Source: a virus | IMG/VR virus record: IMGVR_UViG_3300031772_000170 | Location: 1 to 32,555 of that record | Reading direction: 5' to 3' (one strand) | DNA length: 32,555 bases | In this document: positions 480 through 17,635 of the stretch, one piece after another | Layout of the letters: the number at the start of each line of letters is the position of its first letter | Numbering within the stretch: position 1 is the first letter of the stretch | Translations under genes and position numbers: made by a program | The notes under the pieces: generated by a model | Told to the model about the DNA's origin: nothing | The model's input: only the letters and a program-made list of their open reading frames with translations | Database searches by the model: none

Positions 480-3400
480 ATGGTATGCCAAGTACAAGTA
501 AATTCAATAAAATACTTAGAAGATGAGGGAGCAACCAATGATGTAAGAAGAATCATTGATGAAGAATTATTTAATACGTTAAATGAAAAGCTAACAGTTT
601 TAGCTGAAAAAAAATATGGTTTAAAAACTGATGGTACTAAGTTATTTAGTCTAAATACATCTGAACATATTGATCCTCGTACATCTACATATAGGAGAGA
701 TTCAAAGTACAGAGTAATGAGAGCTGAACCTAATACTAAACTATTTGAACGGTTACAGGATTTGTATAATTCTAGACCTGATCAACCTATGATGATGCGA
801 GAAGAAAACACATTTTCTTTTAGTGCAAAACCTCTTCAAATAAAAGGAAGTTTATATGAACTTGAACCTAATATTTCTGATTTAAAAATTAAAAAGATAT
901 ACAATAACTATGTTGATTTAATGAATAAAGTCAGAAAAAATAAAGCTATTTCCTATGATACTTTTTTAAGTTTAACAAATACATTACAAGTATTTAATTA
1001 TGGTGATACATATATTTTTGGAAACTGGGATAGAAATAATGCTGTATTCATAACAAGATTTAATAGTTCTCCTACAAGTAAAGAGTTATTGGCTGAAGCT
1101 ATACCTGCTATAGTGGCTGAAGGTATAGATGTTATATCTTTTGTGCCATTAGATTATGCAGATAAACTTAAAAGAAGTGGTTATATAGTTAGTAAAAACG
1201 GTTATAACTATGATTTTAAAGGAGAAGATATGGTCAAATATGCAGTTGCTTCTAATCCTGATATTTTTCAAAAAGTATTTAAAAATTCACCTGAAAAAGT
1301 ATCATCAGAAGAAATAAAAACTTATAATAATTCTTTAAAATTAAGATATTCAGCAGTTGATGTAAGAAGTGATTTAATTAATAAAGCTGGTAAAGATGCT
1401 TCTAAAATTTTTGAAACATATTTAAATCAGTTTGCAATAAAAGTAAAAGATATTTCTGAAATTCAAGAAAAATTAGGAATAGATACATTAGGTTTTGCTG
1501 ATATGCTTTCTAAAATAGCTTATATAAAATCTAATAAAGATTTACCAAATGTTGCTGGAGAATTTATTGCATATATGATGCAGTATAATCCTTTAATACA
1601 AGATATAGTAGATGAAGCTATACAAAAAAGAATTATACCTTTAAATCCTAATGAATATACAATTGAAAATGGAAAGATAATTTACGAGTATAAAAAAATT
1701 GATAAAACAAGACATTTTAAATTTATTGGTGATTTAATTGCTCAAGATTTACAAAATAAAGTAGAAGGTAAATATGATAAATCTCTTTTAGATAAAATAA
1801 AACAATTAGTTGCAAAGTTTTTAAATCTTTTGAAAAAAGTAGATATAGGATTAATAAATACTAACATTGGAATTATTAGTTATAATATATTACAACAAAA
1901 TAAAAATTTAATTACTAGCTCATTATATAAACCAGGAGCACAAGGTAAAAAAACAGAACAAGTATCTATAGAAAAAGCTTTAGCTAAAGATAAATTTGGT
2001 AAAGATATTATATATGAACTTTCTAATAAAGGTTTTATTCTTACAGGATCAACAGCACTTTCAGAACAAGGAACTATTTTAAGACCAGACGAAAATCCAT
2101 TACATGATATAGATTGGGTTAGTCCATTTAATAGAAAAGAAACTATTGAAAAGTTTAAAAATTCATATCCTAATGCAGTTAAAGTAAGAGATATAATTAA
2201 TGATAATTATGTAACAGATAGTTATTTAATAGTTCCAGATGGTTATAAAATAGATAATTTTCAAACAGAAATTCATAATGAAAAAATAATACTTACTGAA
2301 TATGATGTTTTAGATAATGATGGAAATGTAGTAGGTACATTTAGATTAGAAAAAGATTTTGATTCTGAAGAAATATTAGAAGTAACTAGAGGTATTCCTG
2401 GAAAAGTAATAGATTTCTTTTCATATCCCGATTATTCTAAATCAAATGAAGAAACACCTTTTGAATATAAAACTAAAGATGGTCAAATTATTCTTTTATC
2501 TAATTGGAAAAGCACATTTAGAGCAAAATTAGCATTTGCTAGATATAAAGATCTTTGGGATTATAACCGTTTTATTCCTTTTTCTGAAACAAAAATGGAT
2601 TCTTCATTAGAGGAAATCAATGGTGTACTCTTTATGGATGTCAAGTTAGATGAACTTCAGAATGAAAGATCAAAAGAAATTGCTGAAGTATTAGCTCAAA
2701 GACTTGCACTTGGTACTAAAACACAATTTGAAAAAATCACAGCTGAAGAAGCTGCAAACATTTTAAAGAATAGACCTGTTAAATATAATGGAGAACCTGC
2801 ATTCTATTATGCTGGTACTGTATATGTAGTAGGAGATAATGTAAATGTAAGAACTGTACTTCATGAGTTCTGTCACCCAGTACTTCAAGGACTGAGAAAA
2901 ACTAATAATCTTCTATTTCAGAATCTATACAATCAAGCACTTGCTACAGAAGAAGGTCAAGGTATCTATTACTATGTAAAAGCTAACTATCCAGAACTTG
3001 AAGAAAACTCTGATCTATTTAAAGAAGAGGTTCTAGCATATGCAATGCAGTTAAAAGCATTAAATAGAATCAATAATGAAATAGAAACAGAAGGATATCA
3101 AAATTTCATGAATAAACTTATGGCTGCTATTAAACAGTTATTAAGACAGTTATTTGGAAATAAGGTAGATGTTGCTAAGTTAGATGTAGATACTACATTA
3201 GGGGAGATGGCAGATATGCTTTTGGATAAAGATTTTGAATTCCAAACAGATGATGTAACTGAAGAAGATCTTGTTATGTTCTCACGAAATGTTGTAGAAA
3301 GAGCACTTGAACTAGCTAGTTTTTCAAATGCTGAATCACAACTTAAAGTGGTCAGAGAGATGTATGAAACTAATAAAAGAATTCTTACAGAAGTTGAAAA

Positions 3401-6400
3401 TTTTAAAGGAGATAAAGCATCAAGAAAATTATTAAAAGAAACAATCTTTGAAAAAGGTACTAATAGATATATCCGGGAAGTTGTAAGTACATTAAGAGAT
3501 CATCTTAATACAGACACTGAAGGTTTTACTGAGAATGAGTTAATTCAGAATGCATTAGATGCTGCAAAAGAATCACAGGAAGTAGATCTTCAAAGAGCAA
3601 CTGCACTTGTAAATACTATAGATAATATCAATAGTATGACAAAGAACATGCTTCTTGATGTTTCAAGAATTAGTCAATCTAATATAAACAGTAGAAGTAC
3701 TATTGCTTTATTGATGTTGTATAAACAAAACTCTAAAGCATGGTTAAAAATGGTTCAAGCAATTGATGAATCTCTTTCTCAAGAAGGAAAACTTATTGAA
3801 AGCAATAACCCTTTTTATCAGTCTTTAAATGAAATTGTATTAAATATCACAAGAATCAATACAAATATTGCAAATATTCTTAAAAACAACAATGTACAGT
3901 TCTATGTAGAAATTACAGGATACATGTCTAAATATGTTCAAGAACAACTTAGAAGTAACCTTGGTACTGCATTAAAGAAAACTTTTTCTGCTGATCAATT
4001 AGAAAAAGAAGTGGATGACTTATATAATAAAGTTGTACAACAAACTCTTACTGATGCTGATGTTGATGCTTTAATTCAAAAAGGTATTCCAGGAGATGTA
4101 TTGAAAGGTTTCTTAAAAGAATATAAAAACTTAGTAGTTGACGAAGATAAAATCAAAGCTGCTCTTACTGGAGGAGCTAAAGATGTTAGTTGGTTTAATA
4201 GATGGTTAGAGAGTTATAGTTCTAGTAATGACGTTATAGTAGGACCATTAGCTATGTTTATTCAAAATGAAAAAACTCAAATACAAAATATTGTTTGGGA
4301 AAGTTCATCAAAGTTTAGAAAAAAGTTAGAAGAGCTCTTACCTAAAGTAGGATTTAGTAAATTAAATTCTATTCAATTAAGAGAAAAACTTGGTTTCAAA
4401 GATAAGATAATGTATTTTGATAAAGAGACAGGTAAACCAATTGAAAGAGAGGTTTGGTCTTATTTAGATAAATACAAAGACTACAGATATCATTATGATT
4501 TATTAGAGTGGAACATAGAAGAAGCAAAGAAATCAGAAGATCAAGCAAAAATTGCTGATGCAGTTATGGAATTTGATCAATTCAAACGTGACTACATGTG
4601 GCAAGAATATGTTCCTGAGTACTATGAGAAAGATGATATCTTTAAAAAATCTGAGGTAGGTAAATTAGCATATTTTGTTAGAAAACAAAAACTACTAGCT
4701 TATAATAACTTACTAAATAGTATGGAAAATGAGCTTGAAAGATTTGAAAAATACTCAACTACACAAGCTGCATTCAGAGAGTTCCAACAATTATACTCTC
4801 TTACATATGAAGATGGTACATCAAAGGTAGATGATCCAGAAAATGCAGTTTATGACTTAAGTATTGCTCAGGTTTTATTAGAACATAGAGCAGCTACAAA
4901 AGGATTTAATGAATGGACACCAATTGAGGGATTACTTCAAAGTGCATATAATGAGTTTGTAGATTTATTAGAAACTAAAAAAATATATCCAGGGTCTGCA
5001 GACTTTAAAGCTGAATTAGAGAAGTGGAGAAGACAGAATCTTAGAATGGAATATGATCCTGCTTATTGGGAAAGTAGAAATACATTAGTTACAGAGCTCA
5101 GAGAATTACAAACAAGAATGAATGAAGTTGCTAAGTCTAAATTTGACGTAGCTACAGCATTCCAAACAATTAATGATCTTATCTATAGTTACAGGGATGA
5201 GCAAGGAGAACCTGATAGCTCTGCTATGGGTAAAACAAGACTTGAAAGAATCAGAGATACAGAACAAGCTATTGCAGACTTCAAGTTTAAATATGACATG
5301 TCCACTGGTCTTTCTAAAGAAGACTCCGAAGAGTTAAAAGATCTACAGTACAAAGCAAGTAAAGGACTATTACAAGCAGGAACTCCTGAATCTAAAAGAT
5401 ATATGTATCTATTAGACATGCAAGAGTCTGAAGGTATACTTCCTGAAGATGCAGCTAGAATTGAAGAAATTTTTGGTGAGTTATCAGAGTTGTCTATAAA
5501 CAGCCCTACTACATATTACATGGAGACATTAAACTATAACTTATCTAAGCAAAATATAAAAGAACAAGATGAGGATGAAATTAATGACTTTATAAACTCA
5601 GATGAATTCCAAGATATTCTTGATGGTGATGAAGAGTTTAGAAATTGGTTTGAGTTAAATCATTATGTTATTCAGACATATGATAAACCATCTAGAGGTT
5701 ATGTTTCTAAATACAAAAGAACTAAAGCAAATACTGTTGCTATTCCAAGAGATGAAAGTCATATCAAGTTTACAAAAATTCTTGATAGAGAGGGTAATAG
5801 TGTTTTATTAATGGGTGTACCAAATGCTAGACATTCAAGATACCAAGTTAAAGATCAATATAGAACTATTCCTTTTGGAGCAGATAAAGAAGACTATGTA
5901 GGTAAATATGTAGATAATAAAAATCATCCACTTCCTAGAATGTATGATCCAAGTGCTAAATATAGTGCACGTGATGGTAGATTCATGAATGAGAAATATT
6001 TTCAAATGCAATCTGCAAATAGTAATGAGTTTCAATTACTTGAAGCAATAAAAGAATATCATTTAGAAAATCAAAAAGGACAAAGTAGTTATAGTAAGTT
6101 ATATCATGACATGCCAAGGTATGCTCTTAAAAAAGGAGATATTTATCAAGCAATGCAAAAAGGTGCTTATGGTCAAAGATTTTCTGAATTAGGTAAGAAT
6201 GTAAAAGAGTGGGTTAAACAAGCTGTAGGTAAATCTGTAATGGATGCTGAGAATGATTTAAACTATGATCCTGAGAATAACTTAGTAAATACTGATTTAG
6301 ATGGCAATCAGATATCTTATATCCCTGTTTCAGGTATTTACAACCTTGATATTGATGTACAAGATGCGGATATTTTCCAAGGTCTATTCAGATATGGCTT

Positions 6401-8177
6401 GTCTATTCAAACTCAAGGAAAACTATTAGAAAGTTTACCTCTTGTTCAAAGTATCTTAGATACATTAGAAGATCCTAATAATGCTCCAAAAGAATTAGAA
6501 AAATTTGATAAAAATATTTATAATCTTAAAGGAGCTTTAACAAATGCAAAGAAAAAATTTGCAACTAATAACAGACTTGGTCAAACAAAATCTCTTATTG
6601 AAAGAGAATACTATGGTAAAATGGTAGAAGGTATTGAAGAAACTCATCCTCAATTTGGTAAATGGGTCTCTCAATTACAAGGTTTATCTGCTACAGGTTC
6701 ATTAGCAGTTAGTATGGCTTCTGATTTAAAAAATAAATACGGTGCATATGTACAGTTAATACTTGAAGGTGCAGGTGCTGAGTTTATAAATCTTAAAGAT
6801 ATTGCACTTGCAAGACCATGGGCAGAAAAAGCTATGTTAGAGTGGAGTACAAAAGGAATATACCAAACAGGACCTGGTGCAGTTTCAACACAATTGATTC
6901 AAATATTTGATGCAAACTTTAAATCCAAAGATCAATTTGGTAGAGAAGTAGAAAGATCTATGGTAAAAGATCTTGTAAACATGGAATGGATGTACATGCA
7001 TAGAAAATTTGGTGAGATGCAAGTTGCTGTTTCATTATTTGGTTCTTTTATGTATGGTCAGAAAGTTGATCAAGTTCTTAGTGATGGTACTAAGAAGTCA
7101 ATGAGATATATTGAAGCTTGGGAAAAAGATGATGATGGTATAATTAGACTTAAAAAAGGTGTTCATCCTGGTTGGAACAATCTTCCAGTTTATCATGAAT
7201 ATACTAAAGGAGAATCTCTTGAAGAAATTGCTAAAAAATATTCTATACCTGTTGATGAACTTAAAGCTAAAAATAGGATTAAGTCTGAGGTACAACTTGA
7301 AGATGGTCAAGAAATTATTATAGCTAAGTCAGAGTTATTCATGGGTCTTAAGAATAGAATTCAAGGGACATCAAGAAAACTTTTTGGTACATATGATGAT
7401 ATGGGTCAACCTGAAGGTAACAAACTATTACTTTATAGAATGTTCTTCTTTATGAGAAAATGGTTTACACCAATGTTTATAAATAGATTTGGTGCTGATT
7501 TATCTAAAGAAAATAGATGGGGTGAAAGATATGATTGGGCTACTGGTTCATATGGTAAAGGATTTTATATTACAGCTTTTCAAACAATGATGAAAACAAT
7601 GAAATCTGGTTTCAAAAACTATAGCTATTTGACTGATAAAGAAAAAACTGCAGTTAGAAAAATGAGTACAGAAGGACTATTTACAATTGGTCTTGCATTA
7701 CTAGGATTAATGTTATTTGGATTTGATCCTGATGATGATGACAAATGGAAAAAACTAAGAGCAAAATCAGGAGCTATAAATGAAGATAATTATAATACAT
7801 ATGGTTTCTTAGCTAATCATATGTTATTACTTGCAATGGGTGTTCAAGCTGAAAGTAGTGCATTTATTCCACTTCCTTCTGTAAAAGGAATAAATTTTGG
7901 TGCAGATGACTATGTAAAAATGATTACACAAACAACAAGTGCATGGTATAATACTGTTGTTCTTTATATTGATATATTTGGAGATGTATTAGACTTTGTA
8001 ACATTCTCTGAAATGGATAGATACAAAAGAGATACGGGTCCTTATTCATGGAAAAGTGAAGGAGAATTAAAAATTTGGGGTAAACTAGGAAAAACAGTTG
8101 GTTTAACAGGAGCTACTGGAGATCCAGTAACCCAAATGGAGAATATGTTTAAAAATAGTGCAAAATTAGGAAATTAA
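480..8177 (+). CDS. Giant multidomain virion-associated protein (NTase-like, zincin and LysM-like motifs)
   Basis: A 2565-residue protein. Residues 521-546 read LTGSTAL...HDIDW, a G-S-T-A-L plus DxD pattern (D543, D545) like nucleotidyltransferase-fold proteins. Residues 795-799 are HEFCH, an HExxH zincin site, with a plausible third metal ligand in EEVLAY (E849/E850). Residues 2238-2283 match a LysM-type segment (YTKGESLEEIAKKYSIPVDEL). Residues 2399-2415 are a hydrophobic helix followed by a run of Asp, and further hydrophobic stretches follow. The middle is long and helical. The architecture resembles the giant internal or ejected proteins of crAss-like and other podophages. I found no DxDGD motif, so it is probably not the catalytic virion RNA polymerase subunit. 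The start at 480 lies one base after the previous stop, and there is no Shine-Dalgarno. The segment at about 1250-2520 is much more AT-rich than the rest. The virion role is inferred from size, position and domain mix. Confidence 0.8.
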   Translation: MVCQVQVNSIKYLEDEGATNDVRRIIDEELFNTLNEKLTVLAEKKYGLKTDGTKLFSLNTSEHIDPRTSTYRRDSKYRVMRAEPNTKLFERLQDLYNSRPDQPMMMREENTFSFSAKPLQIKGSLYELEPNISDLKIKKIYNNYVDLMNKVRKNKAISYDTFLSLTNTLQVFNYGDTYIFGNWDRNNAVFITRFNSSPTSKELLAEAIPAIVAEGIDVISFVPLDYADKLKRSGYIVSKNGYNYDFKGEDMVKYAVASNPDIFQKVFKNSPEKVSSEEIKTYNNSLKLRYSAVDVRSDLINKAGKDASKIFETYLNQFAIKVKDISEIQEKLGIDTLGFADMLSKIAYIKSNKDLPNVAGEFIAYMMQYNPLIQDIVDEAIQKRIIPLNPNEYTIENGKIIYEYKKIDKTRHFKFIGDLIAQDLQNKVEGKYDKSLLDKIKQLVAKFLNLLKKVDIGLINTNIGIISYNILQQNKNLITSSLYKPGAQGKKTEQVSIEKALAKDKFGKDIIYELSNKGFILTGSTALSEQGTILRPDENPLHDIDWVSPFNRKETIEKFKNSYPNAVKVRDIINDNYVTDSYLIVPDGYKIDNFQTEIHNEKIILTEYDVLDNDGNVVGTFRLEKDFDSEEILEVTRGIPGKVIDFFSYPDYSKSNEETPFEYKTKDGQIILLSNWKSTFRAKLAFARYKDLWDYNRFIPFSETKMDSSLEEINGVLFMDVKLDELQNERSKEIAEVLAQRLALGTKTQFEKITAEEAANILKNRPVKYNGEPAFYYAGTVYVVGDNVNVRTVLHEFCHPVLQGLRKTNNLLFQNLYNQALATEEGQGIYYYVKANYPELEENSDLFKEEVLAYAMQLKALNRINNEIETEGYQNFMNKLMAAIKQLLRQLFGNKVDVAKLDVDTTLGEMADMLLDKDFEFQTDDVTEEDLVMFSRNVVERALELASFSNAESQLKVVREMYETNKRILTEVENFKGDKASRKLLKETIFEKGTNRYIREVVSTLRDHLNTDTEGFTENELIQNALDAAKESQEVDLQRATALVNTIDNINSMTKNMLLDVSRISQSNINSRSTIALLMLYKQNSKAWLKMVQAIDESLSQEGKLIESNNPFYQSLNEIVLNITRINTNIANILKNNNVQFYVEITGYMSKYVQEQLRSNLGTALKKTFSADQLEKEVDDLYNKVVQQTLTDADVDALIQKGIPGDVLKGFLKEYKNLVVDEDKIKAALTGGAKDVSWFNRWLESYSSSNDVIVGPLAMFIQNEKTQIQNIVWESSSKFRKKLEELLPKVGFSKLNSIQLREKLGFKDKIMYFDKETGKPIEREVWSYLDKYKDYRYHYDLLEWNIEEAKKSEDQAKIADAVMEFDQFKRDYMWQEYVPEYYEKDDIFKKSEVGKLAYFVRKQKLLAYNNLLNSMENELERFEKYSTTQAAFREFQQLYSLTYEDGTSKVDDPENAVYDLSIAQVLLEHRAATKGFNEWTPIEGLLQSAYNEFVDLLETKKIYPGSADFKAELEKWRRQNLRMEYDPAYWESRNTLVTELRELQTRMNEVAKSKFDVATAFQTINDLIYSYRDEQGEPDSSAMGKTRLERIRDTEQAIADFKFKYDMSTGLSKEDSEELKDLQYKASKGLLQAGTPESKRYMYLLDMQESEGILPEDAARIEEIFGELSELSINSPTTYYMETLNYNLSKQNIKEQDEDEINDFINSDEFQDILDGDEEFRNWFELNHYVIQTYDKPSRGYVSKYKRTKANTVAIPRDESHIKFTKILDREGNSVLLMGVPNARHSRYQVKDQYRTIPFGADKEDYVGKYVDNKNHPLPRMYDPSAKYSARDGRFMNEKYFQMQSANSNEFQLLEAIKEYHLENQKGQSSYSKLYHDMPRYALKKGDIYQAMQKGAYGQRFSELGKNVKEWVKQAVGKSVMDAENDLNYDPENNLVNTDLDGNQISYIPVSGIYNLDIDVQDADIFQGLFRYGLSIQTQGKLLESLPLVQSILDTLEDPNNAPKELEKFDKNIYNLKGALTNAKKKFATNNRLGQTKSLIEREYYGKMVEGIEETHPQFGKWVSQLQGLSATGSLAVSMASDLKNKYGAYVQLILEGAGAEFINLKDIALARPWAEKAMLEWSTKGIYQTGPGAVSTQLIQIFDANFKSKDQFGREVERSMVKDLVNMEWMYMHRKFGEMQVAVSLFGSFMYGQKVDQVLSDGTKKSMRYIEAWEKDDDGIIRLKKGVHPGWNNLPVYHEYTKGESLEEIAKKYSIPVDELKAKNRIKSEVQLEDGQEIIIAKSELFMGLKNRIQGTSRKLFGTYDDMGQPEGNKLLLYRMFFFMRKWFTPMFINRFGADLSKENRWGERYDWATGSYGKGFYITAFQTMMKTMKSGFKNYSYLTDKEKTAVRKMSTEGLFTIGLALLGLMLFGFDPDDDDKWKKLRAKSGAINEDNYNTYGFLANHMLLLAMGVQAESSAFIPLPSVKGINFGADDYVKMITQTTSAWYNTVVLYIDIFGDVLDFVTFSEMDRYKRDTGPYSWKSEGELKIWGKLGKTVGLTGATGDPVTQMENMFKNSAKLGN

Positions 8178-9401: not shown

Positions 9402-11300
9402 TTAAAATAAACTTAATTGGTTTGTACTTGGTTCTAGAGATTCAATTTCTTTTCTAATCTTCTCTAGATAATAATCATAGTTAATATCGTATTCTTCAAA
9501 TGGTTTTTCTACATAATTAATTAGTGTAGTTTGTAACCATCTACCAGCTTCTACCTGTATTTCTCTCTGGTCTGTGTTGTTTCTCTTAATGATCTTAGAT
9601 CCTGTTTTAGAGATGAAATACCTAATAGTATGTTGTAATGGAGTAGTACTATAGTCACCTAATTCTACTTTGTGTTCTATAAATTTCCAATCTCCTTTGA
9701 TTTTTACACCTCCACAAAAATCAAAAATGTTTAGATTTTCACTTATAAACTTTTCAGGTTTAATTCCATCTACAAAATATGCATGTATTGCTTGTGGTAT
9801 AACTAAGAAACTCTTGTTTTTATGAAGAGCTAAATCTTTATACTCAAATCTACCTTTACATTTAGATTTACCGTCTTCATTTACAGCAATATAATTATTT
9901 ACATCACCCAGTATAATCTTAGAATACTTATCATGTTCTAATTCAAGACTAGTTATCTTCTCCCATCTTTTACAAATTTCTAAATATTGAGCTTCATACT
10001 CCCGTGGAATCATAGTTTCTAAACCATCTGTATTTTGCATTAGAGGAATTGCTCCGGGAATCTCTTCACAAATCATCTCATATAACATACTAAGACTTAA
10101 TTGACCATTAATAGTTATACGCATTGTGAATTGAGGATCATACAGGAAACTATTCTCGTCATTACTAAGACCATAGGTTGAATTTAAAATAATCTTGTAT
10201 ACATAATTTCTTGGATCTGACTTTGGAATCTTTTTTCTTTCTTCAAAGAACCATTCATACTGCTCACAAAATTCTTCTTTAGGTAAATGTGCAGGTGCCC
10301 ATCCATTTCTAATAGCTAGATTAGGATAATAACTTACAACATCTGAAGTCATAATGATCATGTCTTCTGTTGAATTATAAACTTTACTAGCTCTAGCACC
10401 ATGAATACCACCTAAACCATAATCAGTTTTGACTCCCTTATACTGTACAGAATATTTAAAACCTCCTTTAGTTTGTCCTGGCCATAAAATTATATCCTGA
10501 AATTTTTTGAGAAGATTTTGAAATGTTGCTGTCTTAAATTCAACATAAGGTAATATTATATCTTTAAAAATAATGTGTTCTCTTTGAGTTCTCATCTGTT
10601 TTAAATCCCATTTCTTGATACCTGTTGATTTATTCAAGAAATGTAAAAACAGTTCTTTTGATATTCTAGGTTCAGAGGCTGAGAATAAATCTATGTCATA
10701 TTCATCTGTTAGTACTTTTCTCAGATTAATTTGATCCTTACTTAGGTGCATTATCTGTTTAGTAGACTTAACATCATTTATACAATAATTTATAATCTCG
10801 GGTATCTGACCTTTTTCTATTTCAGTAGTATGATGTATTGGCATATCTATAATATTATGCCAATCCATAGTATACTGTATCCATTTTAAACTAGATCTTT
10901 TTGCAGGATTATCCCAGTGGTTAAGTTTAAAGACATCAATCTGTCTTATACTTAAATGTCTCGGACTAAATAATGCAAATTCTCCTGAATTACTTCTTTC
11001 TATAGTTTCTTGTGCTTTTCTATAAATGAATCTAGCAATAGTATCACCATCTAGTTCTAATAACTGTTCTTGATTCCGAAGAATATGTTCAGTAATCTGA
11101 CTATCAAAAGCAAGACCATTAAAACTTATGTGCCATTCATTTAAACTTTGATTTCTTTTTAAGAAATGTACTAACTCTTCTATGTCATTTTTAGATTTAT
11201 GACATACAAAGATCTCTTGGTGTTCAGATTTTACATCTTCAAACACTCCTATGAAACAATTTGATAAAGTTTCATAGTCCATCACATAATGTGTCTTCAT
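9402..11300 (-). CDS. Family B DNA polymerase with 3'-5' exonuclease
   Basis: 632 residues; replicates the phage genome. Exonuclease motifs are present: Exo I DYE (D8, E10), Exo II NGLAFD (N61, D66) and Exo III YCIND (Y172, D176), so proofreading should be active. Polymerase motifs follow: a YGLGGIHGA segment at 294-302 like the YxGG linker, motif A DVVSYYP (D320), motif B KIILNSTYG (K369, Y376, G377) and motif C NTDG (T425, D426). The normal second Asp of motif C (DTD) is here Asn-Thr-Asp. The protein is compact compared with cellular family B enzymes (usually above 750 residues). I see no terminal-protein insertions that I can name. The ATG at 11300 is preceded by a 40-base gap and a hairpin terminator, so expression may be set separately from the upstream genes. 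Confidence 0.93.
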   Translation of the reverse strand: MKTHYVMDYETLSNCFIGVFEDVKSEHQEIFVCHKSKNDIEELVHFLKRNQSLNEWHISFNGLAFDSQITEHILRNQEQLLELDGDTIARFIYRKAQETIERSNSGEFALFSPRHLSIRQIDVFKLNHWDNPAKRSSLKWIQYTMDWHNIIDMPIHHTTEIEKGQIPEIINYCINDVKSTKQIMHLSKDQINLRKVLTDEYDIDLFSASEPRISKELFLHFLNKSTGIKKWDLKQMRTQREHIIFKDIILPYVEFKTATFQNLLKKFQDIILWPGQTKGGFKYSVQYKGVKTDYGLGGIHGARASKVYNSTEDMIIMTSDVVSYYPNLAIRNGWAPAHLPKEEFCEQYEWFFEERKKIPKSDPRNYVYKIILNSTYGLSNDENSFLYDPQFTMRITINGQLSLSMLYEMICEEIPGAIPLMQNTDGLETMIPREYEAQYLEICKRWEKITSLELEHDKYSKIILGDVNNYIAVNEDGKSKCKGRFEYKDLALHKNKSFLVIPQAIHAYFVDGIKPEKFISENLNIFDFCGGVKIKGDWKFIEHKVELGDYSTTPLQHTIRYFISKTGSKIIKRNNTDQREIQVEAGRWLQTTLINYVEKPFEEYDINYDYYLEKIRKEIESLEPSTNQLSLF

Positions 11301-12328: not shown

Positions 12329-13315
12329 TTACAATTTTATATTACCAACTGCTAAGTCATAGGGAAGGTCATATCTTTTTTCTGCATAGTGCCATTGTGC
12401 AACTTCTAGTACAGATTTAAACTTCATCCTCCATTCTAACATAGATTCCTGTGATACTTGGAATGGGTAAACTAAATTGTATTTATCAATTACGATAAAA
12501 GTAACTTGTACCTGCCAAGTATCTCTATCCGGTTTGTCTTTTAAAAATTTGTCTGTAGCAAGTATAAGATAAATAACAGCTTGTAGCCAGTACCTATAAT
12601 ATTCTACTGAATCAGGAAAATCTTGTATTGACTTACCAGTAGTTTTGAGGTCATTGATGAATATCATCTTTGCCTCATTATCAACTACGATATTGTCAAG
12701 AACTCCGTGGAAACCAAATTGTAATTTGTCATGATCAACCTTAATGCGCAACTCATTGTAGGTTTCAATATGTGTTTCTTCCTCAGTTTTATCTAATTGC
12801 AATAGGGCTCTAACGTCACTATTACTTTTTAGTATCTCAACCTGTACTTTGCAGCCATTCAAAGTTGGTTCATCTACTATTGTTTTTTCTAGACTTTTTT
12901 TGAGGAATTCAAAATACTCTTTGTTCTCTTCTGTGAGAATCTTTTCAATTCTTTGTTGATCTGTTTTAAGAGATTGATAAAGATTTGCTGTAAGTAACTG
13001 TGTAAGTATATCTTGTGAGTAATCATCCAAAAGTAATGTATTATTTCCAATTGACAAGTGTATTCTAAAAATATTATCAACAATTTTTCTTTGACTGTCT
13101 GTTGGGAGCTTACCTGGCATAGATATAAAGGAATCATCATATTTTTCTGGTTCAAATAAAAGACAGTGCAGAACCCTACCACCTATAAGGTGTGGGTCTG
13201 TACTATCTTCTCTTTGGTTGAGCACATAATGATTATAAAACATAGCAGGTGAATAAAGTAATTTATTCAATCCACTATAACTAAAGTAAAATTTATTCTG
13301 ATAGAATTTTTCCAT
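12329..13315 (-). CDS. PD-(D/E)XK exonuclease (RecE/Cas4-like)
   Basis: 328 residues from the ATG at 13315, which I prefer because it begins MEKFYQNKFYFSYS two bases... after the upstream stop region; an in-frame ATG at 13345 would add ten residues and overlap the upstream gene. Motifs with start at 13315: LHCLLFEP (H50), HGVLD (D207), NDLKTTG (D222 and K224, the D-x-K of the fold) and WLQAVIYL (Q245). This is the layout of PD-(D/E)XK nucleases of the RecE/Cas4/DUF3799 type, which resect double-stranded DNA ends. Together with the Sak4-like ATPase and the SSB-like protein at 21.3-22.7 kb it would complete a recombination set. Target DNA cannot be read from sequence. The 5-base gap to the next gene indicates an operon. 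Confidence 0.85.
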   Translation of the reverse strand: MEKFYQNKFYFSYSGLNKLLYSPAMFYNHYVLNQREDSTDPHLIGGRVLHCLLFEPEKYDDSFISMPGKLPTDSQRKIVDNIFRIHLSIGNNTLLLDDYSQDILTQLLTANLYQSLKTDQQRIEKILTEENKEYFEFLKKSLEKTIVDEPTLNGCKVQVEILKSNSDVRALLQLDKTEEETHIETYNELRIKVDHDKLQFGFHGVLDNIVVDNEAKMIFINDLKTTGKSIQDFPDSVEYYRYWLQAVIYLILATDKFLKDKPDRDTWQVQVTFIVIDKYNLVYPFQVSQESMLEWRMKFKSVLEVAQWHYAEKRYDLPYDLAVGNIKL

Positions 13316-13319
13316 CTCA

Positions 13320-14672
13320 TCAGAACCATTCAAAGTCATCTTCATTTGTTTGTTCTATTTGATTGTTATTTGATTCATTTTCTTCAAGGGTGCTCTCAGT
13401 ACCTTTTTCATTTAACTCAGATTCGGGAGCATGATTCTCTTCTTCTATTGCTATTAACTCTGACTTGAGTTCATTTCTCTCAATCCTAGTAAATGCTTCT
13501 TCTATGTCTTCATCAGATATTTCAATGTCTCCTGTCTCATCAACAGGGTCCTTTAAATCATGCAAGTCTCCGTGTAATTCAAAAACTTCTGCTTCAATTT
13601 CTCCTTCAACAATAAAATCTGGCATTATTTCATGCACATAATTAGTATTAAGAAGTTTTGCAGCTTCTTCATTAAGAGTAAGACTTTTTACTTCAAAATA
13701 TTTTATACCTCCTCTATTTGCAATCTCTTCACCATAATGTTGCATAAGAATCTTTACTTTTTCTAAATCAAAAACATCTTTATCAATAAGAGATTCTACT
13801 ATCTCATCAACATCTGTATGCATATTACCTTTACTTTTATTTAAAAAACTTAGTAAAGATTTAAAATTGACATGATTTTTTGTATTAGAGTCAGCTATTC
13901 TGTGAGTATATTCATTAAAAAGCATCTCAATATAGAGTAAACTATCAATATAATTACAATTAGCCATAATTTCCATTGCAATAATATGATTGTCTTGATC
14001 AGAACTTTTAAACATATCACAAAGTTGAGTAAACATTACTCCATCTATTACAGTAGCATCCTCACCATTAATATATTGTAATAATTTATTTTCATTAAAT
14101 ATATCAAGAGTTAAAATCTTAGGAAATAGATTAGTATAATCTTCATCAATAATATAAAAGATACTTGAATTTCTCATATCGTTTTTAATATTTTTAAGAA
14201 TATCTATTGATGAATTTCTAATTGTTGATGATGAAGAATAACTCATTACTACAATATCTTCAGTATAAAATTCTAAAGCTTGTCTAATATTTTCTCTATA
14301 ATAATCATCTATTACATCTTCTGAGTTTTCATAAATTTCTTGTAAACTACTTACTGGCATACTATGATACCAATTTCCTGTAGTTATTTTATCTTTTGTA
14401 TTGTAACCAGCAAACACATGGGTTGCTTGATCAATATCTCTTACTGTCTTTATTCCATATTGTAGAGTTAAATCTTTCAATTTTACTCTAGGAACATTTA
14501 CACCAGGTAAAAAATAAAGTTTATCTCCTTTAGTAGGAGAATATTCATTATCATTAACTTGTATTATATTATCTGACCTCTCGTCTGTTGACCATACTGT
14601 TTTAGTTTTTATAATAACTTCAGTATTATTAAATTGTTCGATTTCAATATGTAAATAATTTTTCATACACAT
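13320..14672 (-). CDS. Large acidic-tailed protein sharing a helical motif with the gene at 17237
   Basis: About 450 residues. The frame is open to an ATG at 14708, but that start lies inside a terminator hairpin (14679-14703), so I take the ATG at 14672 (MCMKNYLH) or 14666. Residues 220-240 read MFKSSDQDNHIIAMEIMANC, clearly related to MLKSEDADNHIIAFETLKN in the protein at 17237-17635. The last 80 residues are acidic and Asn/Glu-rich and end EDDFEWF, an SSB-tail-like ending. Residues 75-110 and 130-170 look like a mixed alpha/beta segment, with no nucleotide-binding motif that I can see. It follows the MoxR gene and precedes the nuclease gene. The shared motif suggests it works with the VWA/MoxR pair. 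Function unknown. Confidence 0.75.
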   Translation of the reverse strand: MCMKNYLHIEIEQFNNTEVIIKTKTVWSTDERSDNIIQVNDNEYSPTKGDKLYFLPGVNVPRVKLKDLTLQYGIKTVRDIDQATHVFAGYNTKDKITTGNWYHSMPVSSLQEIYENSEDVIDDYYRENIRQALEFYTEDIVVMSYSSSSTIRNSSIDILKNIKNDMRNSSIFYIIDEDYTNLFPKILTLDIFNENKLLQYINGEDATVIDGVMFTQLCDMFKSSDQDNHIIAMEIMANCNYIDSLLYIEMLFNEYTHRIADSNTKNHVNFKSLLSFLNKSKGNMHTDVDEIVESLIDKDVFDLEKVKILMQHYGEEIANRGGIKYFEVKSLTLNEEAAKLLNTNYVHEIMPDFIVEGEIEAEVFELHGDLHDLKDPVDETGDIEISDEDIEEAFTRIERNELKSELIAIEEENHAPESELNEKGTESTLEENESNNNQIEQTNEDDFEWF

Positions 14673-14678
14673 AAATTT

Positions 14679-14703
14679 AAAAAAGGGAGTTTTACCTCCC
14701 TTT
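14679..14703 (-). terminator. GGGAG-stem hairpin with U-tract (minus strand)
   Basis: AAAGGGAG (14682-14689) and CTCCCTTT (14696-14703) form an 8-bp stem with a 6-base loop. On the minus strand six T follow. It is 57 bases after the MoxR stop and only about 6-12 bases before the next start, leaving no room for a promoter. Partial termination or mRNA-end processing seems more likely than a complete stop. Confidence 0.7.
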
Positions 14704-14759
14704 ATCATTGTTATTAATTATAATTGTGGATTTTTAAAGGGGAAACCTTCTATGTTGAC

Positions 14760-15929
14760 TTATTTTATAGCCATCTTCACCACCTCTTGATTCATCATCA
14801 ATGGACTAAACTTAACCTTATTACCGTTGACAATCTCTTTGACCATATAATATCTAAGGTCATCAGTAAATGCATCACAGTCTGTAGTAAGTTTAGCTAT
14901 CCTGTCAATAATTGGTTTACCAACGGATCCTTTGTCAGCCAAAGTAAGAGAATAATTTATTATCCTTGTTGCAATAATACTTGAAATATCAGCACGGAAC
15001 TCATCATCTTTTCCTACTGCATTAGTAAGAGAGTTCATAACATATTGTTCCTCTTTATTCAAGATGTCTTCTGGACTAATAATTCTATCCATTTTATTAT
15101 TAATAAACATGGTAAACATAGAACTAAAATCAGGACCTACTGAACCTTCTCCAATCATCTGAATCAACGGCAAGTTATCTTCAAACTTAGGAATAGAACT
15201 AATACCATTAAAGAATGTAGTTATTGCTCTAGGATTTACTCTTTGAGTTACTAACTCAGGATTCATCAACATAAAGTTAATACATCTACCATCTATTAAT
15301 GCTTTCTCAGCCCACTTAGCCCATACATTAGAATCATATTTTAATTCAACAGATATAAATCTAGTTTTCTGAGCAACATCTAAACTAGTTACATTATAAT
15401 CACCATTATCTGGATTAGTAGTCAAGATAACATGCCAGTTCTTAGGTAATTTCCAAGAGACATATTCTTGTCTATCCAAAATTTCCATTGTTGCTTGCAT
15501 GAATCTTTGATCAGCACGAGTGTAATCATCTAAGATTAAAAATCCACCTTCTCCTTTACCCTGAATCCATTCAGGTGCAGCATGTGACATTCTTTTATCT
15601 ACAACTTTATATCCTTTTGCACTTGCTGCAGGTATCTGAGATTCATTAATCCAAGTAGACTTACCTTCTGCATTTTGTATCTGAAATTCTTTAACAGGAA
15701 ACCCAACCAAGTCACCTAATTCTTCCAATTGAGATAAATTAAGCTTTACAACTTCCATATTCATCTCTTTTCCTAATTGCATTAATGCTGAAGTTTTACC
15801 AAGACCAGCATCACCTTCTATATTTATTGCTACAGGTACTTTACCTTCTTTTTGGATATGTTGGTTATTACCTACCATATGTTTAATAAAACCTTTTAAC
15901 TCTTCAACATTTAATTGTACTTGACTCAT
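14760..15929 (-). CDS. MoxR-type AAA+ ATPase
   Basis: 389 residues. Walker A is GDAGLGKT (39-46), Walker B LILDD (131-135), sensor 1 TTNP (170-173), and an Arg appears in QKTRF near 190. The order and spacing fit the MoxR/RavA branch of AAA+ proteins, which remodel or load cofactors into partner proteins and are typically paired with a VWA-domain protein. That partner is the immediately upstream gene (15940-17244), 10 bases away. Such an AAA/VWA pair is found in crAss-like and other large phages, with no settled substrate. The protein should be cytoplasmic. A hairpin terminator follows. The ATP-binding call is firm; the MoxR subgroup rests on the VWA neighbour. Confidence 0.88.
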   Translation of the reverse strand: MSQVQLNVEELKGFIKHMVGNNQHIQKEGKVPVAINIEGDAGLGKTSALMQLGKEMNMEVVKLNLSQLEELGDLVGFPVKEFQIQNAEGKSTWINESQIPAASAKGYKVVDKRMSHAAPEWIQGKGEGGFLILDDYTRADQRFMQATMEILDRQEYVSWKLPKNWHVILTTNPDNGDYNVTSLDVAQKTRFISVELKYDSNVWAKWAEKALIDGRCINFMLMNPELVTQRVNPRAITTFFNGISSIPKFEDNLPLIQMIGEGSVGPDFSSMFTMFINNKMDRIISPEDILNKEEQYVMNSLTNAVGKDDEFRADISSIIATRIINYSLTLADKGSVGKPIIDRIAKLTTDCDAFTDDLRYYMVKEIVNGNKVKFSPLMMNQEVVKMAIK

Positions 15930-15939
15930 AACTCTTTTT

Positions 15940-17244
15940 TTATAGTTCTAATTTAATAACTTTTCCGGGAAGACTCTCATTCATACATGATTCTTCTGAC
16001 AAAACCCAAAGAACATTTCCTTTAGGCTTTACATCTGCACTACATTCTCCATCAGTAAAATATACTAAACTAGTATATTTATTCAGGTTTGCATTAAAAT
16101 ATTCTAAGACAGGATCAAATTCTGTTCCTCCTCTACCATGTACTTCAAGTTCATTCTTACCTTTGTAAGATTCAATTGATCTGATAGTTGTGTCACATTG
16201 TATAATAGTAATTTCTACTCCACATTTATAAATGTGTTGCATTTCTCCCATGAATTCTCTTAACTCATTGTCACTTACAGAACCTGAAGTATCAATAGCT
16301 AATAACATGTGTTGTCTCATCTTTACTTTTAGACCAGGATTAGCATCAAATCTCTTGTTTTCCTTTCTTCTAATCTTCTTTGTGAATACTTTAGTACTTA
16401 CACCTGTAAATCTTCTAATGTATCCTCTCCAATCAAATTTAGGTGGAACAATTTCATCAATAACAATTACTCCATCAATTTCTCCAGGAACATTACCTCT
16501 TTTCTTAACAGTCTGCTCTTTAGCATCTGAAAGTACTTTCTGTAATTGTCTATCAATTAATTTTTGTTCAGCTTCAGTAAGATCTTCAAAGTCATCCCAT
16601 GAACTATGATCAGGAACATCACCAGATTCTATAGAATCTAATAATTCATCCATTGCATCACATCCACAAGTTCCATTTTTTTGTTTTTCATCTTTTGCTT
16701 CTTTAAGCTTGTCATAATAATATCTACAACCTGCTTTAGTATCAAGATTCATATCATCATAATCTTCAATCATAATGCCTCTAGACGGAAGTTTACTTGC
16801 AATAACTTGCAATTCTTCCTGAGTAGCATTATTTTCCTTAGCACTCTCTAATTCAGATACTATACTTGCTTTAAGAGCATCAAACTCTTCTTTAGTATAA
16901 TCCCCTCCTGGAAGCCAAGACTTGTCAATATACTGATTAATTTCCATATCCATTGCAACATTTGCAAGTTTCCTATCTGTAAACTTAAAAAATGTAGTCA
17001 AGTGACCAAATGCAATGTGTAATAATTCATGTTTTAACAAACCAAGTTTGTTTAATTCAGATAAATTTTCCCAAAATGTAGGATTAATAGTAAGTTGATA
17101 ATTAATACCATTCTTACTTACTCCTGCTGTAGGAACACGTTTACCGTCCCAAACTTTATTTAGCATAAGAAGAAAGAACCCATAATAAGGTTCTTTCAAC
17201 ATAAGCTCTTTACTTGTTTTACTTAGACTGGTTACTTTATCCAT
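15940..17244 (-). CDS. Zinc-peptidase-like / VWA domain protein (DUF2201 type)
   Basis: 434 residues with two halves. Residues 72-81 are HELLHIAFGH, the HExxHxxxGH metal site of the metallopeptidase-like domain found N-terminal to VWA in DUF2201 proteins. The C-terminal VWA domain has a complete MIDAS: DTSGS (D318, S320, S322), T374 in GRGGTEF and D398 in YFTDGE. A Cys pair (GTCGC, 192-195) lies in the linker. The protein is the usual partner of a MoxR ATPase, encoded next. Both the protease site and the metal-binding adhesion site appear intact, so it may hold and process or remodel a client. It starts 8 bases inside the previous gene, indicating coupled translation. The pairing is well known; the phage role is not. 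Confidence 0.88.
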   Translation of the reverse strand: MDKVTSLSKTSKELMLKEPYYGFFLLMLNKVWDGKRVPTAGVSKNGINYQLTINPTFWENLSELNKLGLLKHELLHIAFGHLTTFFKFTDRKLANVAMDMEINQYIDKSWLPGGDYTKEEFDALKASIVSELESAKENNATQEELQVIASKLPSRGIMIEDYDDMNLDTKAGCRYYYDKLKEAKDEKQKNGTCGCDAMDELLDSIESGDVPDHSSWDDFEDLTEAEQKLIDRQLQKVLSDAKEQTVKKRGNVPGEIDGVIVIDEIVPPKFDWRGYIRRFTGVSTKVFTKKIRRKENKRFDANPGLKVKMRQHMLLAIDTSGSVSDNELREFMGEMQHIYKCGVEITIIQCDTTIRSIESYKGKNELEVHGRGGTEFDPVLEYFNANLNKYTSLVYFTDGECSADVKPKGNVLWVLSEESCMNESLPGKVIKLEL

Positions 17245-17635
17245 TGTCTTTTAGTTTAATATTAATTTCAAATTTGTTTATTGGATAACCAATGCTTCCA
17301 AGCATTTTAGTCATATCTCTTACAAAAAATTCCATAAACAATTCAACTGAAGTTGCAGAACCACCATGTTCTGTTATCAAACTCAATGTTTTAGGACTTG
17401 TAAGAGCATATGGATTTTCTCCAATCAAACTAATTAATTTATCACCTATTTTTTTACAATGTTCAATCCAATATTGTCCTTTGTGCCCTCCAAATTTATA
17501 AAGAACAAGTAATTCACCAATGTATTTTTTAATATCTACATTTTTTAATGTCTCAAATGCAATAATATGATTATCAGCATCTTCAGACTTTAACATCATA
17601 ATCAGATTCTTTGTTTCTTCTTTGTTAAATATCAT
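17237..17635 (-). CDS. Helical protein upstream of the VWA/MoxR pair
   Basis: 132 residues, mostly helical. Residues 13-32 carry MLKSEDADNHIIAFETLKN, the same motif found at 220-240 of the large protein at 13320-14672, so the two share a domain. WIEHCKK lies near residues 56-62. There are no catalytic or membrane signatures. It is translationally coupled at both ends: its ATG overlaps the stop of a 31-residue micro-gene (ATGA) and its end overlaps the VWA gene by 8 bases. This fixed order (motif protein, VWA/peptidase, MoxR, motif protein) suggests one functional set, perhaps with these as clients or adaptors. That is inference; I cannot name the family. Confidence 0.75.
   Translation of the reverse strand: MIFNKEETKNLIMMLKSEDADNHIIAFETLKNVDIKKYIGELLVLYKFGGHKGQYWIEHCKKIGDKLISLIGENPYALTSPKTLSLITEHGGSATSVELFMEFFVRDMTKMLGSIGYPINKFEINIKLKDNG

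Follow-up and report, generated by a model that had tools for sequence, protein, structure and literature searches.

MoxR-type ATPases paired with VWA-domain proteins are already known from several systems. In N4-like phages, the MoxR-VWA pair (gp24/gp25) belongs to the core genes (PMC4193335, PMC7650795), and the N4 homologues are middle genes (PMC4193335). A chaperone pair of MoxR and a metallopeptidase-type vWA protein occurs in group 2.2 jumbo phages, for which a role in virion assembly was proposed (Viruses 2021, PMC7824862), and the interaction between a MoxR ATPase and a VWA protein was demonstrated for p618 and p892 of ATV (PMC4124505). In bacteria, MoxR-vWA pairs are central to ternary conflict systems (eLife 2020, PMC7159879); BRCT is not mentioned in that paper. 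No target or adaptor was found on record for the MoxR-VWA/peptidase pairs of the N4-like and jumbo phages, and a full-text search of an incomplete open-access collection returned no paper combining BRCT, leucine-rich repeat and MoxR.

Here, such a pair was analyzed in a 32,555-nucleotide stretch of viral DNA (IMG/VR virus record IMGVR_UViG_3300031772_000170; hereafter the window), a 32.6-kb fragment of the viral record without a terminase gene. The pair is accompanied by protein D, which joins a BRCT-type region to a helical hairpin, and by the small protein A, which shares the hairpin; no report of a BRCT-hairpin partner was found. The four open reading frames (ORFs), all on the minus strand, have the coordinates given in a preliminary description of this DNA:

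17237..17635, minus strand: A, 132 aa, all-helical, stand-alone hairpin-type domain (ORF; family of 56; AlphaFold pLDDT 88.6, seven helices)
15940..17244, minus strand: VWA/zincin cochaperone-peptidase (DUF2201_N + DUF2201), 434 aa (Pfam E 3e-14 and 9e-19; alignment)
14760..15929, minus strand: MoxR-type AAA+ ATPase, 389 aa (phrog_1297 E 6e-33; midasin AAA matches)
13320..14708, minus strand: D, 462 aa, BRCT-like region, hairpin/helical domain and acidic tail (family of 65; AlphaFold; homology to the bacterial BRCT-hairpin region)

Linkage of D to the pair and the hairpin shared with A

The association was followed across loci of related phages, which came from different searches, overlap, and do not represent independent genomes. 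MoxR and VWA were both present in all 214 D loci with enough upstream sequence, and MoxR and D in 197 of the 198 VWA loci with enough downstream sequence. By a strict count, A lies upstream of VWA in 220 of 243 loci, and eight more carry it at a slightly longer overlap; a primase-like or other gene takes its place in the loci that lack it (L073, L075, L114, L116, L130-L134, L140, L141, L148-L150, L152). The fixed part of the module is VWA-MoxR-D, and A is dispensable. A fixed four-protein unit, as suggested in the preliminary description, is thereby not supported: strict linkage to the pair holds for D and not for A. Relatives of D were not found among INPHARED phages by sequence search, and a search of genome contigs with D gave no confirmed match, the D-like genes L374-L376 having been reached through VWA instead. 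Separately, two D paralogues lie in tandem in a distant phage genome (G013; L284 14548-16744), and BFVD contains a pair of D-like structures, both from the phage Podoviridae sp. ctz6O13.

The helical block that A and D had been said to share was confirmed; it reads LIMMLKSEDADNHIIAFETLKN in A and LCDMFKSSDQDNHIIAMEIMAN in D:

17501..17623, minus strand: hairpin motif in A, residues 5-45, helix-SxDxxN-helix (motif pattern, alignment, profile match, AlphaFold)
13920..14042, minus strand: hairpin motif in D, residues 223-263, opening a six-helix domain (motif pattern, alignment, AlphaFold)

These were the only two matches of the motif pattern in the six-frame translation of the window. BLASTP of the single A against the single D gave E 9e-6 over 35 residues, and comparison of profiles built from relatives gathered in IMG/VR (56 of A, 65 of D) gave a probability of 96.4% (E 1.3e-9). 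With rebuilt profiles, the score was 69.5; none of 60 controls with shuffled columns exceeded 22.7, and reversing the profile gave 16.1. Conservation along D peaks at this block in the 65-sequence alignment, and the invariant M14 and N22 of A fall within it. When the A model was run against all ORFs of the first 193 loci and the window, it retrieved A, D and four diverged ORFs, with nothing more below E 1; the four lie just upstream of VWA, and three score well, L157 being weaker (E 3e-7). In the AlphaFold models of both proteins, the block forms two helices joined by the SxDxxN turn and opens a helical domain with the same helix order. A looks like a stand-alone copy of the helical domain of D, to judge beyond the hairpin from the helix order and a weak profile tail. 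Both proteins were modelled as helical repeats, for which the structure search gave weak HEAT-like matches, and A had no significant match among PDB folds.

When 28 entire viral records were searched with the A profile, additional hairpin proteins emerged in the same genomes as the module, some of them with weak matches (E 1e-3 to 1e-7). In many relatives, a protein of ~135 aa is encoded 8-9 kb upstream of A (L271 13651-14064; L283 8849-9250; L290 5334-5738); no homologue of it was found in the window. Two small tandem proteins (~88 and ~112 aa) with the hairpin at the C-terminus adjoin an exonuclease gene and the terminase and portal genes (L276 4747-5335; L278 17065-17635). The view that the motif proteins go with the pair therefore fails for the hairpin at large, which occurs away from the pair in the same phages, and stands for D, which had both partners in every testable locus.

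The BRCT-type region of D and bacterial BRCT-hairpin proteins

The remaining parts of D were delimited as follows:

14355..14543, minus strand: BRCT-like core of D, residues 56-118 (hhalign against the bacterial BRCT region; alignment)
14067-14102, minus strand: last BRCT strand/helix of D, residues 203-214, apparent continuation after an insertion (alignment, AlphaFold)
13323..13583, minus strand: disordered acidic tail of D, ending FEWF-COOH (low pLDDT; family composition)

Profile comparison revealed homology between the N-terminus of D and the BRCT part of the bacterial proteins that bear the hairpin, and showed the D profile to be collinear with bacterial BRCT plus hairpin. Against the bacterial BRCT part alone, hhalign gave E 9.5e-7 for the N-terminal part of D, with a score of 43.1 versus a shuffled maximum of 21.6. 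The order of strands and helices in the AlphaFold model of D is compatible with a BRCT fold. Based on this model and the profile alignment, D apparently has a BRCT-plus-hairpin architecture with an insertion inside the BRCT domain. Two features appear from sequence comparison that the preliminary description had missed, namely the putative BRCT-type N-terminus of D and the presence of BRCT-plus-hairpin proteins beside bacterial VWA-MoxR pairs.

The C-terminus of D is WF in 78 of 100 family members, typically within DDFEWF or DIDWF, and the last 80 residues contain a median of 24.5 acidic versus 4 basic residues. Single-stranded DNA-binding (SSB) proteins have acidic tails with a hydrophobic tip, which the tail of D resembles by analogy only. 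The identification of D as the phage SSB was set aside; relatives carry a separate protein with an SSB-like tail.

Scanning of bacterial genomes with the VWA profile found relatives chiefly in Saprospiraceae, Aureispira, Flammeovirga and other Bacteroidota, together with a few other lineages. A large leucine-rich-repeat hairpin protein adjoins VWA-MoxR on both sides in two Flammeovirga genomes and also in L378, L391, L397 and L399, and a weak hairpin match lies beside VWA alone in L394. A Pfam BRCT match above the cut-off directly precedes the hairpin in four full-length proteins (L378, L399, L417 and L421), of which L417 and L421 are copies elsewhere in the genomes, away from VWA-MoxR. Among 26 aligned bacterial BRCT-hairpin regions, 17 matched BRCT (PF00533), the best at E 1.8e-11. 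Leucine-rich-repeat proteins in which the hairpin follows a BRCT-type domain were also collected from Bacteroidota and Photobacterium (L412-L431), mostly away from VWA-MoxR. The XopAC/XopL NCBIfam matches of the bacterial proteins were rejected, being far below the cut-off and reflecting the leucine-rich repeats only.

Bacterial genomes contain 0-18 hairpin matches each. The first bacterial hairpin model drew on copies at VWA loci, and for this reason a second model (A8) was made only from copies elsewhere. It found 60 copies in 16 genomes (101.6 Mb), of which 10 were in VWA loci of 7 genomes against 0.12 expected; these genomes were picked for having VWA, the first ten listed partly on motif matches, and the full set covers most related full-length loci. 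Hairpin proteins are therefore found beside bacterial VWA loci ~80 times above chance (Poisson P 2e-16); with one match counted per genome and the two Flammeovirga taken as one, P was about 1.6e-9. Among the 24 related full-length bacterial VWA loci, a hairpin protein was present in 6 of the 8 with an adjacent MoxR gene versus 1 of the 16 without, by our reading of the loci (Fisher P 0.0013).

Enzyme sites, neighbouring genes and lineage

The peptidase and MIDAS (metal ion-dependent adhesion site) residues, which were previously thought to look intact, are all present and conserved (H72-E-L-L-H76-x4-H81; D318-T-S-G-S322, T374 and D398):

17002..17031, minus strand: HExxHx4H zincin site (H72, E73, H76, H81), invariant in 12 diverse family members and conserved at at least 97% in 119
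16279..16293, minus strand: MIDAS DTSGS (D318, S320, S322), with T374 at 16123-16125 and D398 at 16051-16053
15789-15815, minus strand: MoxR Walker A, residues 39-47, conserved in alignments
15525-15542, minus strand: MoxR Walker B, D134-D135, conserved in alignments

The five MIDAS residues D318, S320, S322, T374 and D398 are invariant in the alignment of 12 diverse family members, and the catalytic residues are kept down to 48% VWA identity in the family alignment. The VWA protein matched PF13203 and PF09967 above the cut-off, consistent with the DUF2201 zincin-VWA family (COG3864; N-terminal HExxH metallopeptidase, C-terminal VWA-like domain), whereas the 'HNH endonuclease' label carried by phrog_1314 and many GenBank records for this family is contradicted by DUF2201_N and DUF2201. 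The VWA domain reaches residue 432 of the 434-residue protein, with no effector domain fused behind it. The Pfam AAA_5 match of MoxR was below its cut-off.

In related phages, 15 loci have MoxR interrupted near Walker B, and up to nine have it interrupted near Walker A (a pattern count in which not every locus was checked). Two group I introns were confirmed in L012 (2613-2905 and 3998-4227) and one in L053 (4477-4712); L004 and L021 are among the other loci with MoxR inserts, and the inserts that were examined contain, by our reading, GIY-YIG-like homing endonuclease ORFs. In L160 (6821-8518), VWA carries two inserts, one that has a LAGLIDADG-like ORF and interrupts the gene at the HExxH codons, and another further downstream. 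The MoxR copy in the window is uninterrupted and an Rfam search of it gave no match. Homing elements usually target conserved codons of important genes, and because of this preference, inserts at the MoxR Walker and VWA HExxH codons would fit essential ATPase and peptidase sites.

The module is part of a long gene run on the minus strand, in which a ParB-like protein, a helicase, a DnaB-like helicase, a Sak4-like protein and a primase are followed leftward by A, VWA/zincin, MoxR and D, and then by a PD-(D/E)XK exonuclease, two proteins without assigned function and a DNA polymerase:

12329..13345, minus strand: PD-(D/E)XK exonuclease downstream of D (PF12705 E 4e-8; phrog_412; conserved neighbour of D)
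9402..11300, minus strand: DNA polymerase, same gene run (phrog_1252 E 7e-141)

The order A-VWA-MoxR-D-exonuclease-U197-U116-polymerase was seen repeatedly across IMG/VR loci. Translation is probably coupled at two junctions, given the overlaps of 8 nt between A and VWA and of 26 nt between the ORFs of D and the exonuclease. On the opposite strand, a 2565-aa protein without assigned function (480-8177, plus strand) showed a weak LysM-like match (E 0.001).

The lineage had been taken as crAss-like. A terminase (TerL) match to Crassvirales at ~21-26% identity in a relative carrying the same block makes this plausible, although the module is absent from six reference Crassvirales genomes. No VWA was found in these six, and no D apart from one very weak match in cr112_1 (E 0.007); the motif was not found either, a weak negative as that search had no positive control. 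A single supported clade of the VWA tree unites the viral sequences with two contigs from metagenome-assembled genomes (L374 and L376, which may be of phage origin). The related bacteria group apart from it, and distant Bacteroidales and N4/jumbo-type phages branch elsewhere; several branches are long, which makes deep placement unsure.

A proposed adaptor and comparison with described systems

The adaptor reading of the BRCT-hairpin protein was adopted because phages and bacteria both place such proteins beside MoxR-VWA. The conserved sites, the linkage, the homology of A with D and of D with the bacterial BRCT-hairpin proteins, and the bacterial enrichment are its observed basis. In this proposal, the MoxR ring would hydrolyse ATP and work with the VWA/zincin cochaperone, the contact between them being modelled on RavA-ViaA and ATV p618-p892, and VWA/zincin would couple MoxR to targets that are remodelled or clipped. 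D would act as the adaptor: its helical domain, which begins with the SxDxxN hairpin, would dock on VWA or MoxR, its BRCT-type domain would recognise a target (a protein or a DNA end), and its acidic tail, which has a conserved EWF tip at the C-terminus, would recruit a replication or recombination protein in the fashion of SSB tails. A carries only the hairpin domain and therefore may occupy the same docking site as D, thus modulating or replacing it. In Bacteroidota, the adaptor would be the large leucine-rich-repeat protein.

We regard it as evenly balanced whether VWA, MoxR and D form such a core chaperone/peptidase with D as its BRCT-hairpin adaptor in a phage replication-recombination module, with A as an accessory and the association of BRCT-plus-hairpin with VWA-MoxR common to Bacteroidota. 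Several points weigh against this. A is absent from some phages, in several clades, that keep VWA-MoxR-D. The hairpin also turns up in phage and bacterial proteins unlinked to the pair, and so could be a generic fold element. No hairpin protein accompanies the VWA-MoxR genes of a more distant clade of Bacteroidales (L402-L411, order MoxR-VWA), and seven sampled regions with N4-like or jumbo phage pairs showed no credible motif and no A, D or hairpin protein within 6 kb. No single D sequence exceeded the Pfam BRCT cut-off (weak match in 2 of 65, no direct match for D of the window), and the Foldseek BRCT matches of the D model were weak, the best reaching a probability of 0.69 over 50 columns; 'BRCT-type' was chosen as the name of the domain because of this weakness. 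Moreover, every contact, target and replication role in the proposal is inferred.

A and D could instead be clients of a machine that remodels or clips SxDxxN-hairpin proteins, with the hairpin as a recognition tag and D, A, the upstream ~135-aa protein and the two proteins beside terminase as its substrates. The intact peptidase site, the 0-18 matches per bacterial genome and the hairpin in several otherwise unrelated small phage proteins, in two as a C-terminal segment, are in line with this; however, it leaves unexplained that strict linkage to the pair is seen for D and not for the other carriers, and that D conserves a BRCT-type domain and a tail tip, and we consider it unlikely. The occurrence of the hairpin elsewhere in phages and bacteria and the weak HEAT-like matches of the A and D models also fit a generic helical-repeat element, in which case only VWA and MoxR would cooperate and A and D would be neighbours through a conserved replication operon, as the co-conserved gene run to the polymerase might indicate. 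A phage replication operon is missing from the bacteria with VWA-MoxR loci, beside which BRCT-hairpin proteins are nevertheless enriched, so that this explanation is improbable as well.

A role of the pair in virion assembly, in which A and D would serve in scaffolding or in assembly of the tail, would follow the proposal made for jumbo phages on the basis of ATV p618-p892 (PMC7824862) and could draw on the hairpin proteins E2/E3 near the terminase and portal genes. The genes in the window lie in a primase-helicase-exonuclease-polymerase run and not among structural genes, gp24/gp25 of N4 belong to the middle genes (PMC4193335), and helicase and polymerase genes adjoin some of the N4-like pairs; we thus judge virion assembly very improbable.

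If the adaptor proposal is correct, a BRCT domain would be placed in a phage chaperone system. The usual context of BRCT domains is DNA-damage responses and ligases. The recurrent BRCT-hairpin partner provides a testable binding partner and a candidate docking motif, with Flammeovirga as a bacterial test system, and the pairing of the same enzymes with BRCT-plus-hairpin proteins in bacteria suggests the adaptor of a widespread, unstudied machine. More tentatively, and with rather less than even confidence, BRCT plus the SxDxxN hairpin may constitute a previously undescribed adaptor class that defines a branch of MoxR-VWA/zincin machines common to Bacteroidota and aquatic crAss-related phages; in the phages, the machine would act on replication-recombination complexes via an SSB-like acidic C-terminal tip.

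The module of the window shares features with each of the described systems. The preliminary description had pointed to the bacterial ternary conflict systems, which likewise add a third protein to a core of MoxR and vWA; this likeness does not carry further, since the VWA of the window has a zincin in front and no effector behind, and D is not VMAP, iSTAND or FtsH. Searches of D and A against Pfam, NCBIfam and PADLOC gave no match to these three, and a defence-system or third-component identity of either protein was rejected with no Pfam, PHROG, NCBIfam or PADLOC match. RavA-ViaA and ATV p618-p892 similarly consist of a MoxR ATPase and an interacting VWA partner, but without a peptidase domain, and a BRCT-hairpin partner is not described for them. 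The jumbo phage pair contains both enzyme classes, with VWA fused to an N-terminal metallopeptidase; it was proposed for virion assembly, whereas the pair of the window belongs to a replication module with a BRCT-hairpin partner. The N4-like (Schitoviridae) gp24 AAA+ ATPase and gp25 vWFA protein are also a MoxR-type ATPase with a metallopeptidase-VWA protein, located beside helicase and polymerase genes in some genomes, but their usual order is MoxR then VWA and they occupy a separate part of the VWA tree, where branches are long. Closest to D are the BRCT-hairpin leucine-rich-repeat proteins of Bacteroidota (e.g. L378, L379, L383 and L391), which differ from it in their much larger size, their leucine-rich repeats and their occurrence also away from the pair; as in D, a BRCT-type domain is directly followed by the hairpin, and they often adjoin VWA-MoxR in the same order.

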